A DNA stretch of 64,000 nucleotides, taken from assembly GCF_023204875.1 (NCBI RefSeq), contig NZ_CP096247.1, positions 1,116,001 through 1,180,000 on the forward strand, read 5' to 3'. The notes beneath the pieces were generated by a model. The model was not told where the DNA came from. It made no database searches and saw nothing but the letters and a program-made list of their open reading frames with translations. This document shows positions 4,301 to 13,520 of this stretch, one piece after another. The position numbers and the translations under genes were made by a program. The stretch is from Prevotella sp. E15-22. Lineage in GTDB: Bacteria > Bacteroidota > Bacteroidia > Bacteroidales > Bacteroidaceae. Positions within the stretch are counted from its first letter, which is position 1. Every line of letters begins with the position of its first letter.

Positions 4301-4396
4301 GGGTGCAACGGAGCCTGTTTTACCTTGCAACGGAGCCTGAGTTGCATTGTAAAACAGGCTCCGTTAGGGTGTAACTCAGCCTCCGTTGCATCGTAA
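4301..4396. repeat. four-block palindrome cluster inside repeat copy 1
   Basis: Four versions of AACGGAGCCTG alternate in orientation. The first block (4307-4323) is a perfect 17-bp complement of the third (4349-4365). The second (from 4327) pairs imperfectly with the fourth (4370-4390). The perfect pair therefore encloses the second block and leaves the fourth outside. Confidence 0.8.
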
Positions 4397-4526
4397 AATC
4401 GATAGGGGTCAAAAATGGGCGAAAATCAAGCGAAAAAAGAGCCAAAAATACCCCTTTCGCCACTCTAGTTTGTCCATTCTCAGACCCCTAATTTTTAGCA
4501 CTTTTTCTTTACATCAGTATTTTGTC

Positions 4527-4735
4527 TACCCATACACCCATACACCCATACACGCATATCATTTCGTTTTTCGCTTTTCATGATGGGAGGATGAAGGAGG
4601 GTAGTAAATATTTATATATTATATATATATTATAATATATATATAATATATAAATATATATATCCCTTTTTTTGATACGCCACATACATATCGATTTACC
4701 AAATGATATGCGTGTATGGGTGTATGGGTGTATGC
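4527..4735. repeat. inverted arms of 8-bp units flanking an A/T palindrome (copy 1)
   Basis: The left arm (4527-4564) contains three CCATACAC-type octamers followed by GCATATCATTT. The right arm (4700-4735) is its exact reverse complement over about 34 bases. Between them lies a pure A/T palindromic tract (about 4606-4662). A third, direct run of the octamers follows at 4789-4822. The arms could extrude a cruciform or fold as a long hairpin. Confidence 0.88.
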
Positions 4736-4876
4736 CTAAAACTTTAATACAGCCGAGTGGTTTCTTGAGCCTGTCGAGCCATCTTAGCTACCCATACACC
4801 CATACACCCCTACACCCATATCATTTCGTTTTTTCATTTTTCATTTCCCCAATTTTTCCAGATAAAATGTAAACAG

Positions 4877-4900
4877 TTTGCATTTTTTTTACTACCTTTG
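4877..4900 (+). promoter_or_regulatory. promoter at the 3' end of repeat copy 1
   Basis: TACCTTTG at 4893-4900 is a consensus -7 box. A TTTG at 4877-4880 lies only 12 bases upstream, shorter than the usual 19-21, but AAACAGTTTGC is conserved in all three repeat copies. Transcription should start near 4907, giving a leader of about 385 bases before the helicase gene. Confidence 0.65.
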
Positions 4901-4906
4901 TAGGCA

Positions 4907-5282
4907 AGTATCGGCAAACCGTCGTAAACGACGCCTGCCCCAGGCAAGAAATCGTTCGCAAGAACCCCTTGCTGCAAGGCAAAAATCTCTGAGTGCAGAG
5001 TGCTGATATGATTTTAGTGGGTAAATATAATAGCATCAGCTATTTATTCAGAGCGTCGTGAAACCTAGGAAATTTCAAAGATGTAATATAATGGATAAGT
5101 CAGTTGGTGTCCGTGCGATAGCGCGGGCATGACTTATATCTTATATATTACAGGTTATTCCTAGGACCTCACGATGCAAGAGAAGAGCCATGACTCGCGC
5201 TTCTTTTGTGTCCTGAGGTCTTATTGTGATTACCTGTAAGCTAACCTGAAGATATAGTTTTGGTGCTTGCTAAAACTATATC
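4907..5282 (+). ncRNA. long structured leader RNA upstream of the helicase-methyltransferase operon
   Basis: Between the promoter and the ATG at 5291 there is no coding frame but dense pairing potential. Perfect small stems occur at 4920-4933 (CGTCG/CGACG), 4933-4945 (GCCTG/CAGGC), 4954-4965 (GTTC-GCAA-GAAC, a GNRA loop), 4967-4979 (CCTTG/CAAGG), 4987-5000 (CTCTG/CAGAG) and 5002-5040 (GCTGAT/ATCAGC). A long compound hairpin follows at 5053-5177 with five stems of 9, 8, 9, 8 and 8 bp. A competing hairpin covers 5148-5239. A perfect 11-bp stem occupies 5251-5282, eight bases before the start codon. The structures are seen in the sequence. That the segment is transcribed and regulatory is inference. 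It could act as a riboswitch-like leader or as a separate ncRNA. It matches no RNA family that I recognise. Confidence 0.65.
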
Positions 5283-5290
5283 GTTAATCT

Positions 5291-8200
5291 ATGCTTATAG
5301 ACAATCGTAACGATCGTTATCCCCCAAGTGGCTTGGGTATCAAGACCGTGTGGGATTTCATCAACATGTATTCTGGTAACCAGTCACAGCAGATGGGACG
5401 TCTGGATATTGTGACAGGCTACTTCACTATCCGTGCGCTGAGTAAGCTATACAGGGAAATTCCTGAAACGGATACCTTCCGCATTGTTTCTTCTGAGATG
5501 GTAAGACCAGACGAGGCGACTGATGACATTATCGACCTGTTGAATGGCGACCAGAGTATTGACACAGCCCTCGAGTTGGACGAATATGCTGAGGAAGCAA
5601 AGGCTTTCTTGGAGCGTAACAACGTGCAGGTAAAAAGCATTCTGAATGCATTCTGCCATGCAAAGGCCTATATGTTTAAGAACTCCAACCCTCGTGGTCA
5701 GGGTTACTATCTGACAGGCAGCAGTAATATGACAGATGCTGGTCTTGGTCTCAAGAAAACCTCAAATGTGGAGCTGACTATTGGCGAAGCTGTTAATGGT
5801 GCCAATCCAGACTATACAGAGGTTTGTTCTTGGTTTGAGGACATCTGGCGTGATGCTAAAGATAAGATTCAAGATCCTGATGACAGTAAGGCAGGCTTGA
5901 TTAGTGTAAAAGAATTCTTTATTCGCAAGATAGAGGAATACTTCAAGAAATACACACCTGAGGAAATCTATTACAAGATACTTTATGAATTGTTCAAGGC
6001 TGATTTAGACCTTGACGGCACGTCACTCGAACATCAGCAAGATATGTCGTTGCTGCAAACTAGTGAGATATGGCGCACCCTGTTCAATTACCAGCAAAAG
6101 GGAGTTATCTCGTTGATTAAAATGCTGCGAAAGTACAATGGCGCCATCCTTGCCGATGCTGTTGGTTTGGGTAAGACCTTCTCTGCATTGGCAGTCATAA
6201 AGTATTTCCAGATTCAAGGTTACACCACCGTATTGCTTTGCCCTAAGAAATTGCAGCAAAACTGGACGCAATATCTGAAAGGAGCTGGTTCACGCTTTGA
6301 CAAAGATAAGTTCGACTATCAAGTGCGCTTCCATACAGATCTTCAGAATGAGCGCCTGCAAACGGCCTACGATACATTCCGTTTGGATTATTTGCAAAAA
6401 CGTGAAAAGTTATTGTTGGTTATTGACGAGAGCCACAACCTTCGCAATGAGAAATCAGGCCGCTATCAGGAACTGATGGAAAAACTCATTCAGGTTCAGT
6501 CGCAAAAAGAGGGACACCAACTAAAGGTGCTCATGCTTTCTGCTACGCCTATCAATACAGGACTGCGCGATGTGAAAGGGCAATTCAATCTGATTGGCCG
6601 TGGAAAAGATAATGCTTTTGATACTGATGATTTTGGTGTTGAGTCACTGCGAAACCTCTTTGCTGATAGTCATAGAAAATACACGGAATGGTGTAAAGAC
6701 CCAGATCGCACAATAGGCTCGTTCATTGCCAAACTGCAACCTAAGTTCTTTAACTTGACAGATAAACTTATCGTAGCTCGTACACGCCATTTGATCGAAA
6801 AAACATTAGGTGAGGATATGGGCTTTCCAGAGAAGGCAAAACCACAAAATGTTTATCAGGGCGTTGACCATTTTGGCAAGTATCAGAGTACAGATGAAAT
6901 CTATGATGCCTTCGATAAATTGACACTGACGGCTTACCAACCAAGTCTATTCCTACCTGATTCACAGCAGAAAGCCAAGAAGGGAGCAAAAAGCGATTGG
7001 GAAGACAACGTAAACCGTGAACGCTTCCTTGTGAAGATGATGGGCATCCTGTTTATGAAGCGACTGGAGAGTTCGTGGTTTTCTTGTATGCTCACCGTCA
7101 AGAAAGTACTTGATGTGCATGAGCAAACGCTGCAAAAGGTGCTCGAATATAAGGAACACCAAAGAAATGGAGAGTTAGATATTGATGTACCTGATGAGGA
7201 TGAGAACTTCGATGTTGACGATATGTTCACTCTTCGCAAAGGAACTATTCGTCTGAGCGACATGAAGAATCTTGGCGGTTTCGAGGCTGGCTTGCGCTAC
7301 AATGTGAATCGTCTGAATGAAATCTATAAGAGTCTGCAAACCTTTGAAGAAGACTATCATAATGGTTTTGAGCAAGACTTGAAGATGGAGGAGCTTATCA
7401 GGATTCTCAAAGAGAAGCAAAAGGCAAACAATAAAAAAGTGGTTGTCTTTACTGCTTATAGTGATACAGCCAAGTTTCTCTATGATGAACTGCAGAAGCG
7501 AGGCTTTGCACATATTGCTACAGTTTCAGGTTCTGATATTCATAGTTCAGGAAATCATCATACCAATGACTTTCAAGAAGTTCTGCAAAGTTTTGCACCT
7601 TATAGCAAACTCTACAAGGAAAAGGATTGGAGTACGCTTTATGAAGATTCGAAACTCGATACAGAACAGTATTACAATGCAGAAAAGCGCCAGTGGAATG
7701 TCCCTTATGAATTGTGGGAGCAATTGGTCAGAGAGAGAGAACCAGCTACGGCTCGTCTGCTTGATGATCCTGTCGATATTCTGATAGCCTCAGACTGTCT
7801 ATCAGAAGGTCAGAATTTGCAAGATGCTGATATGCAGGTGAATTACGACATCCATTGGAATCCTGTTCGTCTAATCCAGCGTTTTGGCCGTATTGACCGT
7901 ATTGGCTCACCTAATAAGTTGGTGCAATGTGTTAATTTCTGGCCTGCAAAATCCTTTGAACAATACCTCCGTTTGGAAAGTCGCATCATGAATCGAATGG
8001 TGACCATGAATCTTGTTGGTTCAGAGACCCAGGAACTGAACGATGCCTATTTACAGATGGAAAAAGATAACCCTCTGATTGACAAGAATGCAGACCGTCT
8101 CTTGGCAGAGTTGGAAAACAACAGCATCAGCGACATCGAATCTCCACGTACCTTGTCGCTCAAAGACTTCTCACTCGAAGTTTATCGTCAGGATTTACTC

Positions 8201-8704
8201 GACTACTTTGAACGCTACAAGCAGCAGTTAGAAAGTATGCCGAATGGTATCTACTCAGGTTTTAGAAACGAAGATACGCTTTTTGAGCATGTTCCAGAAT
8301 CGTTGGTGGCTGTCATTGGCTATCCCAAACGTGAACAGAATACCAAGAGTCATCACTATCGTGAAATCTATCTGATGTGCCAACCCGCCGACAAATCGCA
8401 GGCTCCCACTTTCACAGAAATGAATCGTGCAGAGGTACTAGACTTCCTGCGTAAAAACAAATATCAGGATCGCTATCTGCCAGACTGGATTGAGAGTCAT
8501 CAGAAAGAGCGTCTGTCGAAGTTATCTGCCATTGTGCAGGAATGGATGGAGGAGAAGGTGCCACAACAGGCGGTTATAGATATGAAAGATCGCTTCCGCT
8601 CTAAAGGAAGTATGACAAAAAAATCTGCTGAAGAGGAAAGCCTAGACAAGAAATTTCAGAAGGAGAACTTTGACCTCATCGCATGGGAGTATGTAAGCAA
8701 ATAA
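5291..8704 (+). CDS. PLD-domain SNF2-type helicase of a defence-like operon
   Basis: This 1137-residue protein starts with a phospholipase D-like domain. HAK in FCHAKAYMF (about residue 122) and GSSNMTDAGLG (about 143) form the HxK...GSxN half-site found in PLD nucleases. A superfamily 2 helicase of SNF2 type follows, with DAVGLGKT (about 288), DESHN (about 377), SATPINTG and QRFGRIDRIG (about 862). Such proteins move along or remodel duplex DNA, and the PLD part may cleave it. It is the first gene after the structured leader, and nine bases separate it from the methyltransferase gene. Single PLD-helicase chains beside methyltransferases occur in several restriction-like systems, DISARM being the nearest well-known relative in domain content. 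The drmA and drmB genes of DISARM are absent, so I do not assign it to a named system. Confidence 0.88.
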   Translation: MLIDNRNDRYPPSGLGIKTVWDFINMYSGNQSQQMGRLDIVTGYFTIRALSKLYREIPETDTFRIVSSEMVRPDEATDDIIDLLNGDQSIDTALELDEYAEEAKAFLERNNVQVKSILNAFCHAKAYMFKNSNPRGQGYYLTGSSNMTDAGLGLKKTSNVELTIGEAVNGANPDYTEVCSWFEDIWRDAKDKIQDPDDSKAGLISVKEFFIRKIEEYFKKYTPEEIYYKILYELFKADLDLDGTSLEHQQDMSLLQTSEIWRTLFNYQQKGVISLIKMLRKYNGAILADAVGLGKTFSALAVIKYFQIQGYTTVLLCPKKLQQNWTQYLKGAGSRFDKDKFDYQVRFHTDLQNERLQTAYDTFRLDYLQKREKLLLVIDESHNLRNEKSGRYQELMEKLIQVQSQKEGHQLKVLMLSATPINTGLRDVKGQFNLIGRGKDNAFDTDDFGVESLRNLFADSHRKYTEWCKDPDRTIGSFIAKLQPKFFNLTDKLIVARTRHLIEKTLGEDMGFPEKAKPQNVYQGVDHFGKYQSTDEIYDAFDKLTLTAYQPSLFLPDSQQKAKKGAKSDWEDNVNRERFLVKMMGILFMKRLESSWFSCMLTVKKVLDVHEQTLQKVLEYKEHQRNGELDIDVPDEDENFDVDDMFTLRKGTIRLSDMKNLGGFEAGLRYNVNRLNEIYKSLQTFEEDYHNGFEQDLKMEELIRILKEKQKANNKKVVVFTAYSDTAKFLYDELQKRGFAHIATVSGSDIHSSGNHHTNDFQEVLQSFAPYSKLYKEKDWSTLYEDSKLDTEQYYNAEKRQWNVPYELWEQLVREREPATARLLDDPVDILIASDCLSEGQNLQDADMQVNYDIHWNPVRLIQRFGRIDRIGSPNKLVQCVNFWPAKSFEQYLRLESRIMNRMVTMNLVGSETQELNDAYLQMEKDNPLIDKNADRLLAELENNSISDIESPRTLSLKDFSLEVYRQDLLDYFERYKQQLESMPNGIYSGFRNEDTLFEHVPESLVAVIGYPKREQNTKSHHYREIYLMCQPADKSQAPTFTEMNRAEVLDFLRKNKYQDRYLPDWIESHQKERLSKLSAIVQEWMEEKVPQQAVIDMKDRFRSKGSMTKKSAEEESLDKKFQKENFDLIAWEYVSK

Positions 8705-8713
8705 GGAAAAGGT

Positions 8714-11700
8714 ATGGAACAAACTTTGAAACAATTTATCAACGGCAATCTTTTTGATGCCACTAACTTATTGCTGGGTGAACTCAATATCAAGCATACG
8801 CAAGAAATACCTTCACCCATACAATACAGCGACTTTTTTGACGGAGAAGTACCTCTGTATATCAAGAATGCTCTATCATTAACAACAAGGTGTTATTATA
8901 TAGGTGAAGTAAGCGATGATTCACTATCTGGTAACAATAAAGATGCAACTACCCTCAGCGAGGACCTACAGAAACTGAGAGATAATGCCAAATATAAAAG
9001 CATGATGCTCTTTGCCGTTGACTTGCATTCTGATGCTAGCATCACCCGCTCCAATATGGCTGTACTGACTCGTGCTTTCAACCGCTTAGTGTATAACTTC
9101 CCTGTAACCGTCATTTTCCGTCAAGGGCATCTGCTGAGCATCGGCACTTGTGAACGTACAGAGTTCAAACAGAAATGGAAACAAGGTCAAGGAGAGAAGT
9201 TGGGACGTGTCACAATTTTAAGGAATATTGATTGTAATAATCCACATCGTGCTCAAATCGACATTCTTTCTCAAATGAATGCAGAGGAATGCACGAACTT
9301 TGATGACCTCTACAGAAAATGGATGACGGAGTTCGACATTTCGCTGCTCAACAAACAGTTCTATAAGGAATTGCAGGAATGGTTCTATTGGGCAGTTGAC
9401 GAGATTAAGTTACCTCAAGTCATATATAGTAATCAGGACGATGACCAGCAAGCCAAAAACTTCATTGTGAGGATGCTCTCACGTCTGATGTTCTGTTGGT
9501 TTATAAAGGAACGTGGCCTCATAGAAAAACAACTATTAGAGCTAACTGACTTCAATAATCATAGATACCCTATCGTAAAAGATATTGATGATGAGAATTT
9601 CCTTGATAGCAACAGTTACTATCGTGGCATCTTGCAAAACATGTTCTTCAATGGTCTTAACAAACAGAACAAGTCAACACAAAAGGATTTCAAGTGTACG
9701 AACTATCTGCCTGATGGTTTTGACTACAAGCGTTTCCTCAATCTGCCATTCCTCAACTGTGGAACTTTCGACCCTTTGGAAGAGGACTTTAACAAGGAAT
9801 CGATTGAAGACACTGTAATCTCAGTACCCAACCGACTGTTCTATGGTGATGACGAAAACAAAGGTATTAACAAAATTTTTTGTAGTTACCACTTCACTAT
9901 CGAAGAGAATACACCGCTTGATATTGACATTGCCTTAGACCCAGAGATGCTTGGTTTGGTATTTGAGAATCTGCTAGCAGAAATTGACCCCAATAACGAT
10001 GACGCTACCACCAAGAGTATTCGCAAGGCTACAGGTTCTTACTATACACCTCGCCCTGTAATTCAGTCTATGGTTAATGAAAGTCTATTAGTCTACTTGA
10101 AGAAGTGTATCGGATTTGAGGCAAACGAAAATGCAACGGAGTTCCTGACCAACTTGATTTATCACGATGTTCTAAATAATGATAGGCATAATCGTCAGAT
10201 TGTAGAGGGCCTCTATGAAATTAGAGCATTAGACCCGGCTTGTGGAAGTGGTGCTTTTCCTATGGGCATGTTACAGCGAATTGTGGACTTATTGAAGATA
10301 GTCGATCCTGGTAACAGCCTTTGGCTTGATATCATGCTGGAACCGATAAAAGACTGGACTGTTCGTGAGAACTTCAAAAAGCAATTGGTTTGTCATCAGG
10401 ATGACTACTCTCGCAAATTGGGTATTATACAGAACTGTATCTATGGTATCGACATTCAGCCTATAGCCGTACAGATTACAAAACTGCGTTTCTTTATTTC
10501 TCTTCTCATAGACCAAAAAATTGACAAGAATGCCGATAATGCAGGTGTTACTCCATTGCCAAATTTGGAAACGAAAATTGTATGTGCTGACTCATTGAAA
10601 AGCCTCAGTGCAGATGTTTTTGAAGAAGATCTGAAGGCCAAGATGATTCTTGAACGCGAGAAGTATTATCAGCCTGATGTTACATCTGATGAGCGTAAGG
10701 AGATTGCTGGAAGAATAGCAGATATGATGGATGTCTTATATCCCACATTTGCGATTAGACTCGGGATGAAGCAGGTTTCTAATAAAGCCGTTTTGAAGAA
10801 GTGGTTTATGACTGGTAGTGTCAATGCCCCATTCTTCGATTTGAAGACTTTTTTCCCAGAAATTGAAAATGGCTTCGACATTGTAATTGGCAATCCACCG
10901 TACGGAGGTTTCAAGATAGAAGATGATGTAAAAGATGGCCTTGGACTTGGAAACAAAGATCCATACGGAGCTTTTATAGCTCGTTTCTTGGGTAATGGCT
11001 CAAGAATCACACCTCTAAAATATGGAGGCGTATTATCCTATATTGTCAGCGACACCTTTATGACTATTGGCACACATCTGAAGCTTCGTCAACAGATGAT
11101 GCACAACAAGATATACAAGATGGTACGCATGTCTCCCAAAACATTTAGTGCCACAGTCAATACCGTTGTTATTGTCTGTGAGAAATGCAGAGCAGATGCT
11201 ACCGACTCTGCCATTGAGGGAAATATCTGTCAAATGGCCGATATGTCAAACATAGATATTCATGAGGATTTTGAGCATTTCATGGACATCCTTTCTCGAA
11301 GCACTATGCAAATAATCAATGTTGCCAATGAGGAATATGCTATTTACAACTATGAGCAGAAACTAATCAAGAACTGTTCTAACCTTCCGTTCTTTGTGGC
11401 TTCACCAAAGATATTTGGTTTGATGAATGATGCAGATAGGAACGCAATTAGAGGTACAACGCAATTGGGGGGTATAAGTATCCCTTTCAGACAAGCAAGC
11501 ATAAACGAATCTATCATAAGAGTTGTAAATCTGGGCCTCGTATCTGAAGTCAAAACCGGACTTCAAACAGGCGACAACCCAGCATATCTTTTTCAAGATC
11601 CTGATGCAAGAGGTACCTATAAAGATATAAACTTATTTGTTGAAAAAGTCCTTAACGATGAAGATTTCAATAGAATCTCCAAAGACAAGAAGTTGCGTTT

Positions 11701-12454
11701 GGATATCATTTCAAATGGAATAAGTATAGATAATACACGTTCTCAGAGATATTTTGGAGGTAGGTATATACTCCCATATGACAAGGGTGGAGAAAGTGAT
11801 AGCGATGGAGGTTGGCTCCCCAATTATTACGTCCCAACAAATTATTATATTGATTGGAGTGAATGGGCAGTTAATAGAATGAAATCACTGACCATAGCTG
11901 ATCGAATAAGAATTAATAAGGAGAAAAAGAAAATAAACGCACGTGCAGAAAACACCTTAGCTGCTGTTATTAGAAGCCCTCAAACTTATTTCTTACCAGC
12001 AATAAATGTTTCGCGAGTTGGTATGTATAGTCCAACATTCAGAGTGTCATCCAATGCTCCATACGACTCTGGGTGTAATAACATCTTTACAGATTTGGAT
12101 ACAATTTACCTGATGGGTATACTTTGTAGCAAATTTTACCGTTTCTTGTTTATTAACTATGTAAATGGTACTGTAAACAGTCAGACGGATGATCACTTAT
12201 TGCTACCGATAGTGGTTGATGAAATCAGTGGATTGAAAGAAAAAGTAGAAGCAATTATAAAGAAACAGCATGAGCCTGGCAATCTCCGATATGACTATGC
12301 TTCTCATGAACAAATTGAGATCGACAAATTAGTTTATAAAGCCTATGGCTTAAACGAAGATGACATCAACGAGGTTGAAACATGGTTTGCTCGTCGTTAT
12401 CCCAAACTTGCATCGGCTCAACGTAGTAATCTTGAAAAGTTGAAGAGAAAATGA
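8714..12454 (+). CDS. Eco57I-like N6-adenine DNA methyltransferase
   Basis: The 1246-residue protein has the SAM-binding motif LDPACGSGAFPMGML (about residue 505) and the catalytic motif GNPPYGGF (about residue 725), which mark an N6-adenine methyltransferase of the Eco57I/type IIG class. The spacing between motifs includes a helical insert. About 450 residues precede the motifs without an obvious PD-(D/E)xK nuclease, and about 500 follow, probably containing target recognition. The stop codon overlaps the next start (ATGA), so expression is coupled to the EVE protein. It should mark host DNA while the helicase-PLD partner acts on unmarked DNA; this division of labour is inference from context. 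Confidence 0.9.
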   Translation: MEQTLKQFINGNLFDATNLLLGELNIKHTQEIPSPIQYSDFFDGEVPLYIKNALSLTTRCYYIGEVSDDSLSGNNKDATTLSEDLQKLRDNAKYKSMMLFAVDLHSDASITRSNMAVLTRAFNRLVYNFPVTVIFRQGHLLSIGTCERTEFKQKWKQGQGEKLGRVTILRNIDCNNPHRAQIDILSQMNAEECTNFDDLYRKWMTEFDISLLNKQFYKELQEWFYWAVDEIKLPQVIYSNQDDDQQAKNFIVRMLSRLMFCWFIKERGLIEKQLLELTDFNNHRYPIVKDIDDENFLDSNSYYRGILQNMFFNGLNKQNKSTQKDFKCTNYLPDGFDYKRFLNLPFLNCGTFDPLEEDFNKESIEDTVISVPNRLFYGDDENKGINKIFCSYHFTIEENTPLDIDIALDPEMLGLVFENLLAEIDPNNDDATTKSIRKATGSYYTPRPVIQSMVNESLLVYLKKCIGFEANENATEFLTNLIYHDVLNNDRHNRQIVEGLYEIRALDPACGSGAFPMGMLQRIVDLLKIVDPGNSLWLDIMLEPIKDWTVRENFKKQLVCHQDDYSRKLGIIQNCIYGIDIQPIAVQITKLRFFISLLIDQKIDKNADNAGVTPLPNLETKIVCADSLKSLSADVFEEDLKAKMILEREKYYQPDVTSDERKEIAGRIADMMDVLYPTFAIRLGMKQVSNKAVLKKWFMTGSVNAPFFDLKTFFPEIENGFDIVIGNPPYGGFKIEDDVKDGLGLGNKDPYGAFIARFLGNGSRITPLKYGGVLSYIVSDTFMTIGTHLKLRQQMMHNKIYKMVRMSPKTFSATVNTVVIVCEKCRADATDSAIEGNICQMADMSNIDIHEDFEHFMDILSRSTMQIINVANEEYAIYNYEQKLIKNCSNLPFFVASPKIFGLMNDADRNAIRGTTQLGGISIPFRQASINESIIRVVNLGLVSEVKTGLQTGDNPAYLFQDPDARGTYKDINLFVEKVLNDEDFNRISKDKKLRLDIISNGISIDNTRSQRYFGGRYILPYDKGGESDSDGGWLPNYYVPTNYYIDWSEWAVNRMKSLTIADRIRINKEKKKINARAENTLAAVIRSPQTYFLPAINVSRVGMYSPTFRVSSNAPYDSGCNNIFTDLDTIYLMGILCSKFYRFLFINYVNGTVNSQTDDHLLLPIVVDEISGLKEKVEAIIKKQHEPGNLRYDYASHEQIEIDKLVYKAYGLNEDDINEVETWFARRYPKLASAQRSNLEKLKRK

Positions 12455-12855
12455 GATACTGGATGGTAAAGTTCGCTCCATTTCGTGTAAGTTGGGAAGA
12501 CATCTTGGCTTCAGGAAAGTTTGAGATTTATAGCGTGAGGAATCCTCAGTCGCGCAACAATCTCGAACAGATGAAGGTTGGCGATCTTGCTTTCTACTAT
12601 CATAGTCAGACTGATAAACGAGTGATGGGCATCATGCAAGTAGGTCAAGAGGCCCATCAGGACTTCACCACTTCAGACACTCGTTGGAAGTCTGTCACCT
12701 TCGAACCTGTTGAAACACTTAAATGCCCCATTACTCTACAAGCAATCAAGGATACAGAAGAGTTAAGTCAAATAGCACTCGTTCGTCAACCTCGTTTGGC
12801 AGTAAGTGAGTTGACAAAAGAAGAATACGAAACCCTTAAACAATTATCAATATGA
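12451..12855 (+). CDS. EVE-domain protein, probable modified-base reader
   Basis: The 134-residue protein is essentially one EVE domain of the PUA-like superfamily: YWMVKFAPFRVSW at the start, VRNPQSRNNLEQMKVGDLAFYYHS near residues 30-55, then VMGIMQVG. EVE domains bind modified bases in DNA or RNA and often sit beside restriction or methylation genes. Four-base ATGA overlaps join it to the genes on both sides, so it belongs to the same translational unit. In this operon it could recognise methylated or hypermodified DNA; that role is inferred. Confidence 0.85.
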   Translation: MRYWMVKFAPFRVSWEDILASGKFEIYSVRNPQSRNNLEQMKVGDLAFYYHSQTDKRVMGIMQVGQEAHQDFTTSDTRWKSVTFEPVETLKCPITLQAIKDTEELSQIALVRQPRLAVSELTKEEYETLKQLSI

Positions 12856-13520
12856 CGAAACTTGAAAAGCTATACAGCATCATAGAGAACTCTCGTGAGG
12901 TGGGAGTGAAGCTAAGCAAGGATGTCCTTCAACAAGTAGAGGAATTGGAGGAAGGTATTATCAAGGAAGAGATATTGCCTGCGTTGGGCAACGATATTGC
13001 GCCACGTTTGGAACCAATCAAGCGTGACTTGGTTCTGGTAGTGGAGTATCACCCTGGTGAACCCATCAGCGTGGCCCTGAGCCGTAAGACAAAGATTAGT
13101 GAGATTATGGGAGCTAAGACGCTGACACCTCGAAGCAGCACGCCTGTAAAGAGTGATGAAGAACCAGTAGAAGTAGAGCCACACGAACCCAAGAAGCACA
13201 TAGAGAACACTACAAAGGGTATGCGCGTCACTTTCCCAGACGGCACAGTCATTTGGTATCGTCAGGCCATTGATACCTTCATTGATGCTCTACGTAAGAT
13301 AGGGTTAGAGCGTATTCCTGAGGTTGGCATTATTCATAGCGACTTCAATCTTGTCAGCAAGGAGAAGCGCCCCACAGTTCCAGGTCGTATCTGGCAGCAT
13401 GAGTGTGATGGCTGGTATATTTACTCGAACATCAGCAACGTAACCAAGAAAGAAGACCTGAAACGCATCTCAGACTACTATCACCTTGGACTAAAGATAG
13501 AAGATGGGAAACCAGAGTAG
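12852..13520 (+). CDS. fourth gene of the helicase-methyltransferase operon, unknown function
   Basis: I do not recognise a named domain in this 222-residue protein. The first ~65 residues are helical and end in a basic-acidic region. Residues ~65-75 resemble the motif EYHPGEPISVALSRK. A charged Glu/Pro linker follows at about 95-120. The last ~100 residues form a compact-looking domain with MRVTFPDGTVIWYRQAIDTF and DGWYIYSNISN. Proteins with a similar pattern (a DGT-I segment, an 'IGLERI' helix, and a Trp-Tyr-Ile-Tyr strand) are found near restriction genes, but this is memory, not a search. The ATGA overlap with the EVE gene shows that it is part of the operon. Confidence 0.75.
   Translation: MTKLEKLYSIIENSREVGVKLSKDVLQQVEELEEGIIKEEILPALGNDIAPRLEPIKRDLVLVVEYHPGEPISVALSRKTKISEIMGAKTLTPRSSTPVKSDEEPVEVEPHEPKKHIENTTKGMRVTFPDGTVIWYRQAIDTFIDALRKIGLERIPEVGIIHSDFNLVSKEKRPTVPGRIWQHECDGWYIYSNISNVTKKEDLKRISDYYHLGLKIEDGKPE

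Follow-up and report, generated by a model that had tools for sequence, protein, structure and literature searches.

Covarying pseudoknotted leader RNAs upstream of restriction and surface-protein genes in Bacteroidia, with a predicted terminator-like site

The leader of a defence-type operon in Prevotella sp. E15-22 (NZ_CP096247.1) contains a conserved RNA core, the structure of which is kept by covariation among relatives that stand before many unlike genes. That this RNA family exists can be regarded as practically certain. It is apparently an undescribed class within a known kind, the structured leader RNAs of Bacteroidia, and we give about even chances to the reading that it works as a transcription attenuator built like a riboswitch.

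The window analysed here is a stretch of 64,000 nucleotides, and the leader spans ~375 nt between a promoter and a helicase gene. The original prediction of a structured leader attached to a defence-type operon was supported, and both the promoter box TACCTTTG at 4893-4900 and the helicase start at 5291 were confirmed. The elements at 4877..4900 fit the Bacteroidota promoter consensus. In the helicase the PLD matches score under the Pfam cut-off, and its best PADLOC match is C3a139 HKD+Snf2. The operon is composed as follows.

4877..4900, plus strand: Bacteroidota-type promoter, TTTG at 4877-4880 and TACCTTTG at 4893-4900 (read from the sequence)
5291..8704, plus strand: first operon gene, PLD-like and SNF2 helicase of 1137 aa (ORF, Pfam, PADLOC)
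8714..13520, plus strand: remaining operon genes (ORFs, domain searches), namely the next three
8714-12454, plus strand: Eco57I/type IIG-like methyltransferase
12451-12855, plus strand: EVE protein
12852-13520, plus strand: 222-aa protein

As predicted, the leader seems to hold no coding frame: by eye, no reading frame is conserved across leaders, and a short frame from the ATG at 5008 is not kept in relatives, which speaks against a shared leader peptide. At 4525-4820, immediately before the promoter, a TA-rich palindrome is flanked by copies of CACCCATACACCCATAC in inverted and direct orientation, and at 4305-4385 GGAGCCTG motifs are repeated together with their complements.

The original prediction had placed the emphasis on a run of six small hairpins at the 5′ end of the leader. 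Six non-overlapping perfect hairpins (stem of at least 4 bp, loop of 3-8) could indeed be fitted into 4907-5040, compared with 1.72 +/- 1.05 in dinucleotide shuffles, none of 500 of which reached six; such a run is thus rare in random sequence, as had been claimed. When a stem of at least 5 bp was required, three hairpins were observed, a count matched by 5 of 500 shuffles. The expectation that the leader folds better than shuffled sequence held for the leader as a whole (z -8.57; 0 of 100 shuffles equally good), but the bead part was little better than its shuffles (z -1.66; 12 of 200). For 5041-5290 the value was z -9.13 (0 of 200). Moreover, not all six named stems are the real pairings. 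GCTGAT (5002-5007) pairs in the MFE structure with the 5′ sequence GTATCGGC (4908-4915) and not with ATCAGC, part of which belongs to a different hairpin (5030-5043). The stem of GTATCGGC and GCTGAT covaries in relatives and closes a 5′ module.

4907..5010, plus strand: optional 5′ module, corresponding to the beads (MFE; covariation of the closing stem)
4908-4916 with 5001-5009, plus strand: closing stem of the 5′ module (z 6.1, 54 non-redundant domains)
4920-4933, plus strand: hairpin CGTCG TAAA CGACG (MFE)
between 4933 and 4987, plus strand: variable hairpins (MFE)
4987-5000, plus strand: hairpin CTCTG AGTG CAGAG (MFE; loose pattern in 30 of 54 5′ domains of relatives)

By eye, a hairpin like CGTCG/CGACG recurs in relatives, and the loose pattern describes a CTCTG/CAGAG-like hairpin with an AGNG loop; the middle hairpins are variable. 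The module with its closing stem was found in only part of the 54 long non-redundant 5′ domains, and restriction genes, again by eye, lie downstream of the copies that have it. Because of the weak folding signal and the optional presence in relatives, the bead chain was rejected as the conserved unit, and the key feature is instead the covarying core at 5019-5180.

5019..5180, plus strand: conserved core, matched by covariance model R1 with 155.7 bits (model search, covariation)
5030-5034 with 5039-5043, plus strand: hairpin Pa, part of the core
5044-5049, plus strand: strand U5′, TTATTC, pairing with 5093-5098 as a pseudoknot (permutation z 9.9, 68/83)
5053-5059 with 5171-5177, plus strand: closing helix P0 (z 27.6; 99.0% of cells paired; two-sided changes in 6 of 6 pairs)
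5060..5076, plus strand: hairpin C′, GAAA/TTTC (z 5.7; 97.0% paired)
5064-5071, plus strand: 5′ strand of P1, CCTAGGAA, within the C′ loop (P1 z 20.1, 83/83)
about 5082-5091 with 5143-5152, plus strand: helix P2 (z 31.4)
5095-5102 with 5130-5137, plus strand: helix P3 (z 13.2)
5108-5116 with 5121-5129, plus strand: helix P4 (z 12.4)
5152..5169, plus strand: hairpin K, AGGT/ACCT (z 8.4, 74/83; 67.5% paired in the column count)
5158-5165, plus strand: 3′ strand of P1, TTCCTAGG, within the K loop (P1 z 20.1, 83/83)

Pairing was counted by column in 68 aligned copies (67 distinct) with a 52-pair model; the alignment was fitted to P0-P4 and favours those helices, C′, K and U are absent from its model, and U was left out of the count. 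In this comparison 91.6% of the cells were paired and 41 of 52 pairs showed two-sided changes; absence of covariation, one of the refuting conditions named in the original prediction, does not apply to the leader as a whole. Two-sided changes were seen in 696 cells; shuffles gave 191 +/- 12 and slid controls 113-169. The low value for K is attributed to a misaligned 5′ strand of this hairpin. Compensatory changes thus keep the structure, as in a structured cis-acting leader.

The z values of the core helices were obtained with a swap test on 83 non-redundant of 147 copies (2000 permutations), in which each sequence's own strands were compared with strands swapped between sequences; some relatedness is kept by this test, and the helix windows were picked after inspection of the same sequences. 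Besides the helices listed above, the terminator described below reached z 8.2, a downstream hairpin A 7.0 and the lower part of a hairpin C 6.7. Three negative controls gave z -1.1, -0.9 and 3.5, and six energy-based controls were flat (26-38/83), while duplex energies supported C in 56/83 and A in 47/83 copies. By these comparisons P0-P4, and U at z 9.9, appear clearly above the negative controls. Since one negative control reached z 3.5 and relatedness is retained, values near 6-8 (C′, A, the terminator and K) are taken as only moderate evidence.

The covariation describes a compact fold in which P0 closes a junction of hairpin C′, the arm P2-P3-P4 and hairpin K. We read P1 as a loop-loop helix of 7-8 bp between C′ and K rather than as a helix stacked between P0 and P2; the flanking covariation is what favours this form over open C′ and K. 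Pa is followed by the strand of U, which pairs between P2 and P3 and forms a second pseudoknot overlapping part of P3. The cores of L034, L038, L039, L040 and L041 make up a subgroup with AGCGTTTGCTATTATTC, and secreted or lipoprotein-like genes follow them where an ORF was found.

The leader has a second copy in its own genome (72% identity), which precedes an EcoRI-type methylase gene and then a GmrSD/HNH gene. When searching family genomes at the DNA level, 12 places were found in 11 of 151 genomes, the own genome included, and twelve aligned leaders had the core in common and differed in their 5′ part. Model R1, a covariance model of the core with 160 positions and E-values that are rough owing to a shortened calibration, matched 252 of 399 genomes of the same family (E <= 0.01). 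At E <= 1e-4 it matched 87 of 295 genomes drawn from the order, three of the matching genomes being of the own family, and 17 of 296 drawn from the phylum, with two of the own family. As these searches scored 5-10 candidates in each genome, the copy numbers are minimum values. Every match outside the order is labelled with the same class, which we infer from the named carriers to be Bacteroidia; such carriers include Prevotella communis E15-14, Xylanibacter brevis ATCC 19188 and X. ruminicola Ga6B6. Five genomes (G668, G476, G414, G570 and G669) have at least 10 matches each, some at contig ends, and the copies there may adjoin repeated genes, for instance those of BspA-type proteins.

An exact core pattern was also searched in one genome per bacterial or archaeal species and was found in 115 stretches. 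By their titles as read, 111 are from Bacteroidota, one is unlabelled and three are others (L087, L138 and L146). The first 80 stretches listed were analysed, 79 of which match R1, and the other 35 were left out. L138 and L146 are on contigs labelled Eubacterium and Alphaproteobacteria, and these copies are possibly misbinned Bacteroidota DNA.

The earlier statement that no described family matches was upheld. Rfam 15 gave no match in the window at the gathering score; in 20 relatives it gave a tRNA alone, located outside the core, and in 9 further relatives (E <= 0.5) only His_leader, at E 0.4, under gathering and outside the core. The sub-threshold matches inside the leader, RAGATH-34 (E 2.1) and mir-578 (E 4.7), are far under gathering and were discarded, as were better-scoring ones, which are microRNA models in the repeats upstream of the leader. 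In the literature searched, supplementary candidate lists excepted, no description of this RNA was recognised. It may be one of the thousands of candidates to which PMC8040213 refers.

Most copies are followed by a gene on the same strand. A first same-strand ORF was found within 900 nt in 140 of 147 copies, with a median start 102 nt after the core; 74 of the 140 start at 75-110 nt and 92 at 60-130 nt, and about one third fall outside the latter range. Pfam tallies cover 58 of 65 and 65 of 75 first ORFs in two sets, after short, distant, doubtful and near-identical ones had been dropped. SNF2 helicases (8 and 10) and EcoRI methylases (4 and 2) were present in both, together with N6, Eco57I, N6_N4, MmeI and C5 methyltransferase domains. 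The restriction genes in first position encode HsdM, N4/N6 and C5 methyltransferases, MmeI/Eco57I types, EcoRI methylases, SNF2 proteins and DrmD-like helicases. Domains outside defence were TonB plugs (4, first set), BspA repeats (3 and 2), two MBOAT and two Acyl_transf_3. In a second sample of 40 copies, hand-picked down the listed ranks and not random (33 from the family search, 7 from the order search), a DNA-methyltransferase or SNF2 domain was found in 16 of 39 first ORFs, all in the own family (16/33; elsewhere 0/6). Pfam gave no match for the first genes of L217, L219, L220 and L226 in this sample. In genomes outside the family, inspection by eye and Pfam point to secreted or membrane-bound products for many first genes, and restriction genes also occur there, e.g. 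in L046, L047 and L052. In Prevotella communis E15-14 (L131:4397-7240) the first gene matches DrmD of DISARM. Three loci (L114:2643-2939, L127:6818-7096 and L157:5569-5847) have a similar small protein of 92-98 aa as first ORF.

We also examined whether the leader is kept in homologous operons. Helicase homologues (E <= 1e-80) were found in 6 of 201 genomes, own included. L240, the sole close homologue found by protein that has enough upstream sequence, encodes a 72%-identical helicase, but the core is absent upstream of it and another folded leader (z -4.34) is present instead. The same other leader precedes L241, where the contig ends 123 nt upstream; the sequence of L242 stops short of the gene start, and L243 and L244 are distant (38 and 32%). 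L110, L116 and L117 do carry the core upstream of the helicase, in a set that is biased by having been found through the RNA. A homologous operon without the segment, which the original prediction named as grounds for refutation, thus occurs in the one close homologue that could be judged. The second leader (for example L240:1310-1500; also L241, L246 and L248-L253) has a conserved AAAGGTTTGGTCGCCTGTCGAGACACTG inside a stem, followed in several copies by a T-rich stretch, and gives no match to R1 or Rfam. It was matched in 12 of 151 genomes (E < 1e-7, including the genome it was taken from), and among eight relatives all six first genes tested contain SNF2 or HSDR_N, the latter by Pfam in L248 and L253. 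Operons thus exchange their leaders, and the RNA resembles a regulatory cassette that can be swapped rather than a working part of the enzyme.

The core lies between a promoter box and a start codon on the same strand. Upstream, a TAnnTTTG box was found in 128 of 144 copies with enough sequence (shuffle mean 16.7), and downstream of P0 a T-run (at least 6 in 8) was found in 124 of 147 (shuffle mean 46.8); both shuffles preserve base composition only. In the middle half of the copies, the T-run starts 20-24 nt after P0. A hairpin ends within 7 nt of it in 61 of the 68 non-redundant copies having a T-run, and the 5′ arm of that hairpin and the P0 3′ strand overlap in 43 of these 61 judged copies. 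The other 22 of the 83 non-redundant copies are without a T-run (15) or without a hairpin at it (7). By prediction, an intrinsic terminator thus stands between sensor and gene, as in an attenuator.

5178..5207, plus strand: intrinsic-terminator-like hairpin and T-run (predicted fold; T-run in 124/147)
5209..5241, plus strand: hairpin A, a post-terminator strand complementary to the 3′ strands of K, P1 and P0 (MFE; 47/83, z 7.0)
5251..5282, plus strand: AT-rich hairpin directly before the start codon (MFE)

Several leaders of restriction genes, as judged by eye, likewise contain the GAAGATATAG of the last of these hairpins. Complementarity also exists between the terminator tail (CCCACGC type) and the P4 3′ strand (GCGTGGG type), in the window 5121-5127 with 5194-5200, and likewise in relatives. 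This pair scored z 13.5 in the swap test, no lower than P4; the tail might duplicate the P4 5′ strand and so give the terminator another way to form.

The predicted fold depends on transcript length. At 5207 the MFE structure in the window contains both the core and a local terminator, which there does not overlap P0; once the transcript extends from 5207 to 5250, hairpins C and A replace the core. Among the 83 copies, P0 is in the MFE structure of 82 at its own end, of 66 at the T-run end and of 40 after 90 nt. Hairpin A, which is weakly supported across relatives, is then present in 34.

The comparison of copies thus revealed a promoter box, a covarying pseudoknotted core, a hairpin and T-run within a narrow range of distances, and then a start codon. 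For an attenuator, transcription would begin from the promoter box and could terminate at the T-run. The core would fold during transcription, with a ligand or protein setting its stability. Because the 3′ strand of P0 overlaps the 5′ arm of the terminator in 43 of 61 copies, the state of the core would decide whether transcription ends or continues into the restriction or surface gene. If it continues, the downstream strand would capture the 3′ strands of P1 and P0 and dismantle the core. The two copies in the own genome, before the PLD/SNF2 gene and before the EcoRI-type methylase with GmrSD/HNH, support this mechanism, and the unlike downstream genes and the swapping of leaders would fit a regulator rather than a part. 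Against it counts that the downstream genes suggest no common metabolite, and so do the 22 of 83 copies without a T-run or a hairpin at it, the third or so of first ORFs beyond the 60-130 nt range and the weak support for hairpin A. Mutual exclusion of P0 and terminator is probably not universal, as P0 is still predicted at the T-run end in 66 of 83 copies and the local terminator of the window leaves P0 free.

The same arrangement could be explained in other ways. With promoter box and T-run bracketing the core in most copies, and P0 predicted intact at the T-run in those 66 copies, the RNA might be a stand-alone small RNA, acting in trans or, in the manner of a type III or AbiF antitoxin, neutralising the protein encoded downstream; AbiF of C. 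difficile has a toxin-binding RNA, according to PMC12373285. We consider this unlikely: the downstream proteins are in unrelated families, all of which a single fold could hardly bind, a close helicase homologue is without the RNA, and the same-strand first ORF in 140 of 147 copies favours cis action. Slightly less probable still is a processive antitermination element of EAR or put type, which would alter RNA polymerase through its fold and so carry transcription to the end of long operons. A complex 5′ RNA directly before a terminator-like site, with long restriction genes among those that follow, would suit it, but short secreted-protein genes also follow the core and Rfam models give no match. 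Control of translation, with strand exchange and the pre-start hairpin hiding or freeing the initiation region, is judged improbable to the same degree. The AT-rich hairpin at 5251-5282 adjoins the ATG, and in L008 no terminator separates the core from the start codon, which it adjoins directly; more general, however, is the T-run with its narrow spacing.

The original prediction had also raised an RNA component of the defence operon as a real possibility. A role as guide or sensor within the defence machinery would be in line with the DNA-methyltransferase or SNF2 domains in 16 of 33 own-family first genes of the second sample, yet we hold it to be very improbable. The core precedes unrelated restriction enzymes as well as secreted, TonB-plug, BspA and acyltransferase genes, and the 72%-identical helicase (L240) and SNF2 genes (L246 and L250) stand behind another leader. 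The least credible explanation is a repeat or insertion-type element acting as DNA and not as RNA: some genomes do have at least 10 matches, in part at contig ends, but the promoter box is strand-consistent, the covariation is of RNA type including G-U pairs, and the T-run spacing is narrow. A phage or plasmid element was sought and dismissed, as the core pattern had no exact counterpart in viral contigs and a blastn search with window 5010-5262 matched neither phages nor plasmids.

As an attenuator, the RNA resembles attenuating and orphan riboswitches, in which an intrinsic-terminator-like site likewise comes after a core that is compact, covarying and pseudoknotted and lies in a 5′ leader. 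Second-messenger riboswitches occur in several copies per genome before unlike genes, as does the RNA described here. It differs in that the loop-loop helix in the junction and the outer pseudoknot match no Rfam 15 model and that many genes behind it are restriction systems; the likeness is one of predicted design. EAR, which we take to be the epsC motif (RF01735), and put RNA are processive antitermination elements. The epsC motif and JUMPstart (RF01707) are 5′ elements in Bacillales and gamma-Proteobacteria, as given in PMC2864571. Both resemble the present RNA as 5′ elements of variable operons, whereas their host groups differ and Rfam gives no match here. Flavo-1 (RF01705) is a Bacteroidota motif with several matches in 5′ regions, according to PMC9723704, but its model had no match in the window or the 29 relatives scanned.

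RCd22 is described as the RNA antitoxin of an AbiF system in PMC12373285. Type III and AbiF RNA antitoxins are likewise folded RNAs that accompany a defence gene; each of them binds a single protein family, whereas here the adjacent proteins are diverse and fall into unrelated Pfam families. C-proteins are transcription factors controlling restriction-modification genes. That such genes need regulation is stated in PMC3850674. Like a C-protein, the leader would regulate a potentially toxic restriction system, in this case through RNA instead of a transcription factor.

A wider reading, which we put forward tentatively and regard as rather doubtful, is that one signal, e.g. some indication of phage attack or a nucleotide second messenger, controls the transcription of unlike restriction systems and surface proteins in Bacteroidia through a new riboswitch-like class, and that restriction operons take up existing sensor cassettes from two or more unrelated RNA families. 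To our knowledge, it is little understood how Bacteroidota restriction systems spare a new host from being killed, or how they increase during infection. With a large covarying leader common to unlike restriction operons, RNA control of restriction would become open to direct tests, and many gut and rumen genomes gain an RNA class for which a clear structural model exists. If the RNA binds a ligand, that ligand would name a signal linking defence and the cell surface.
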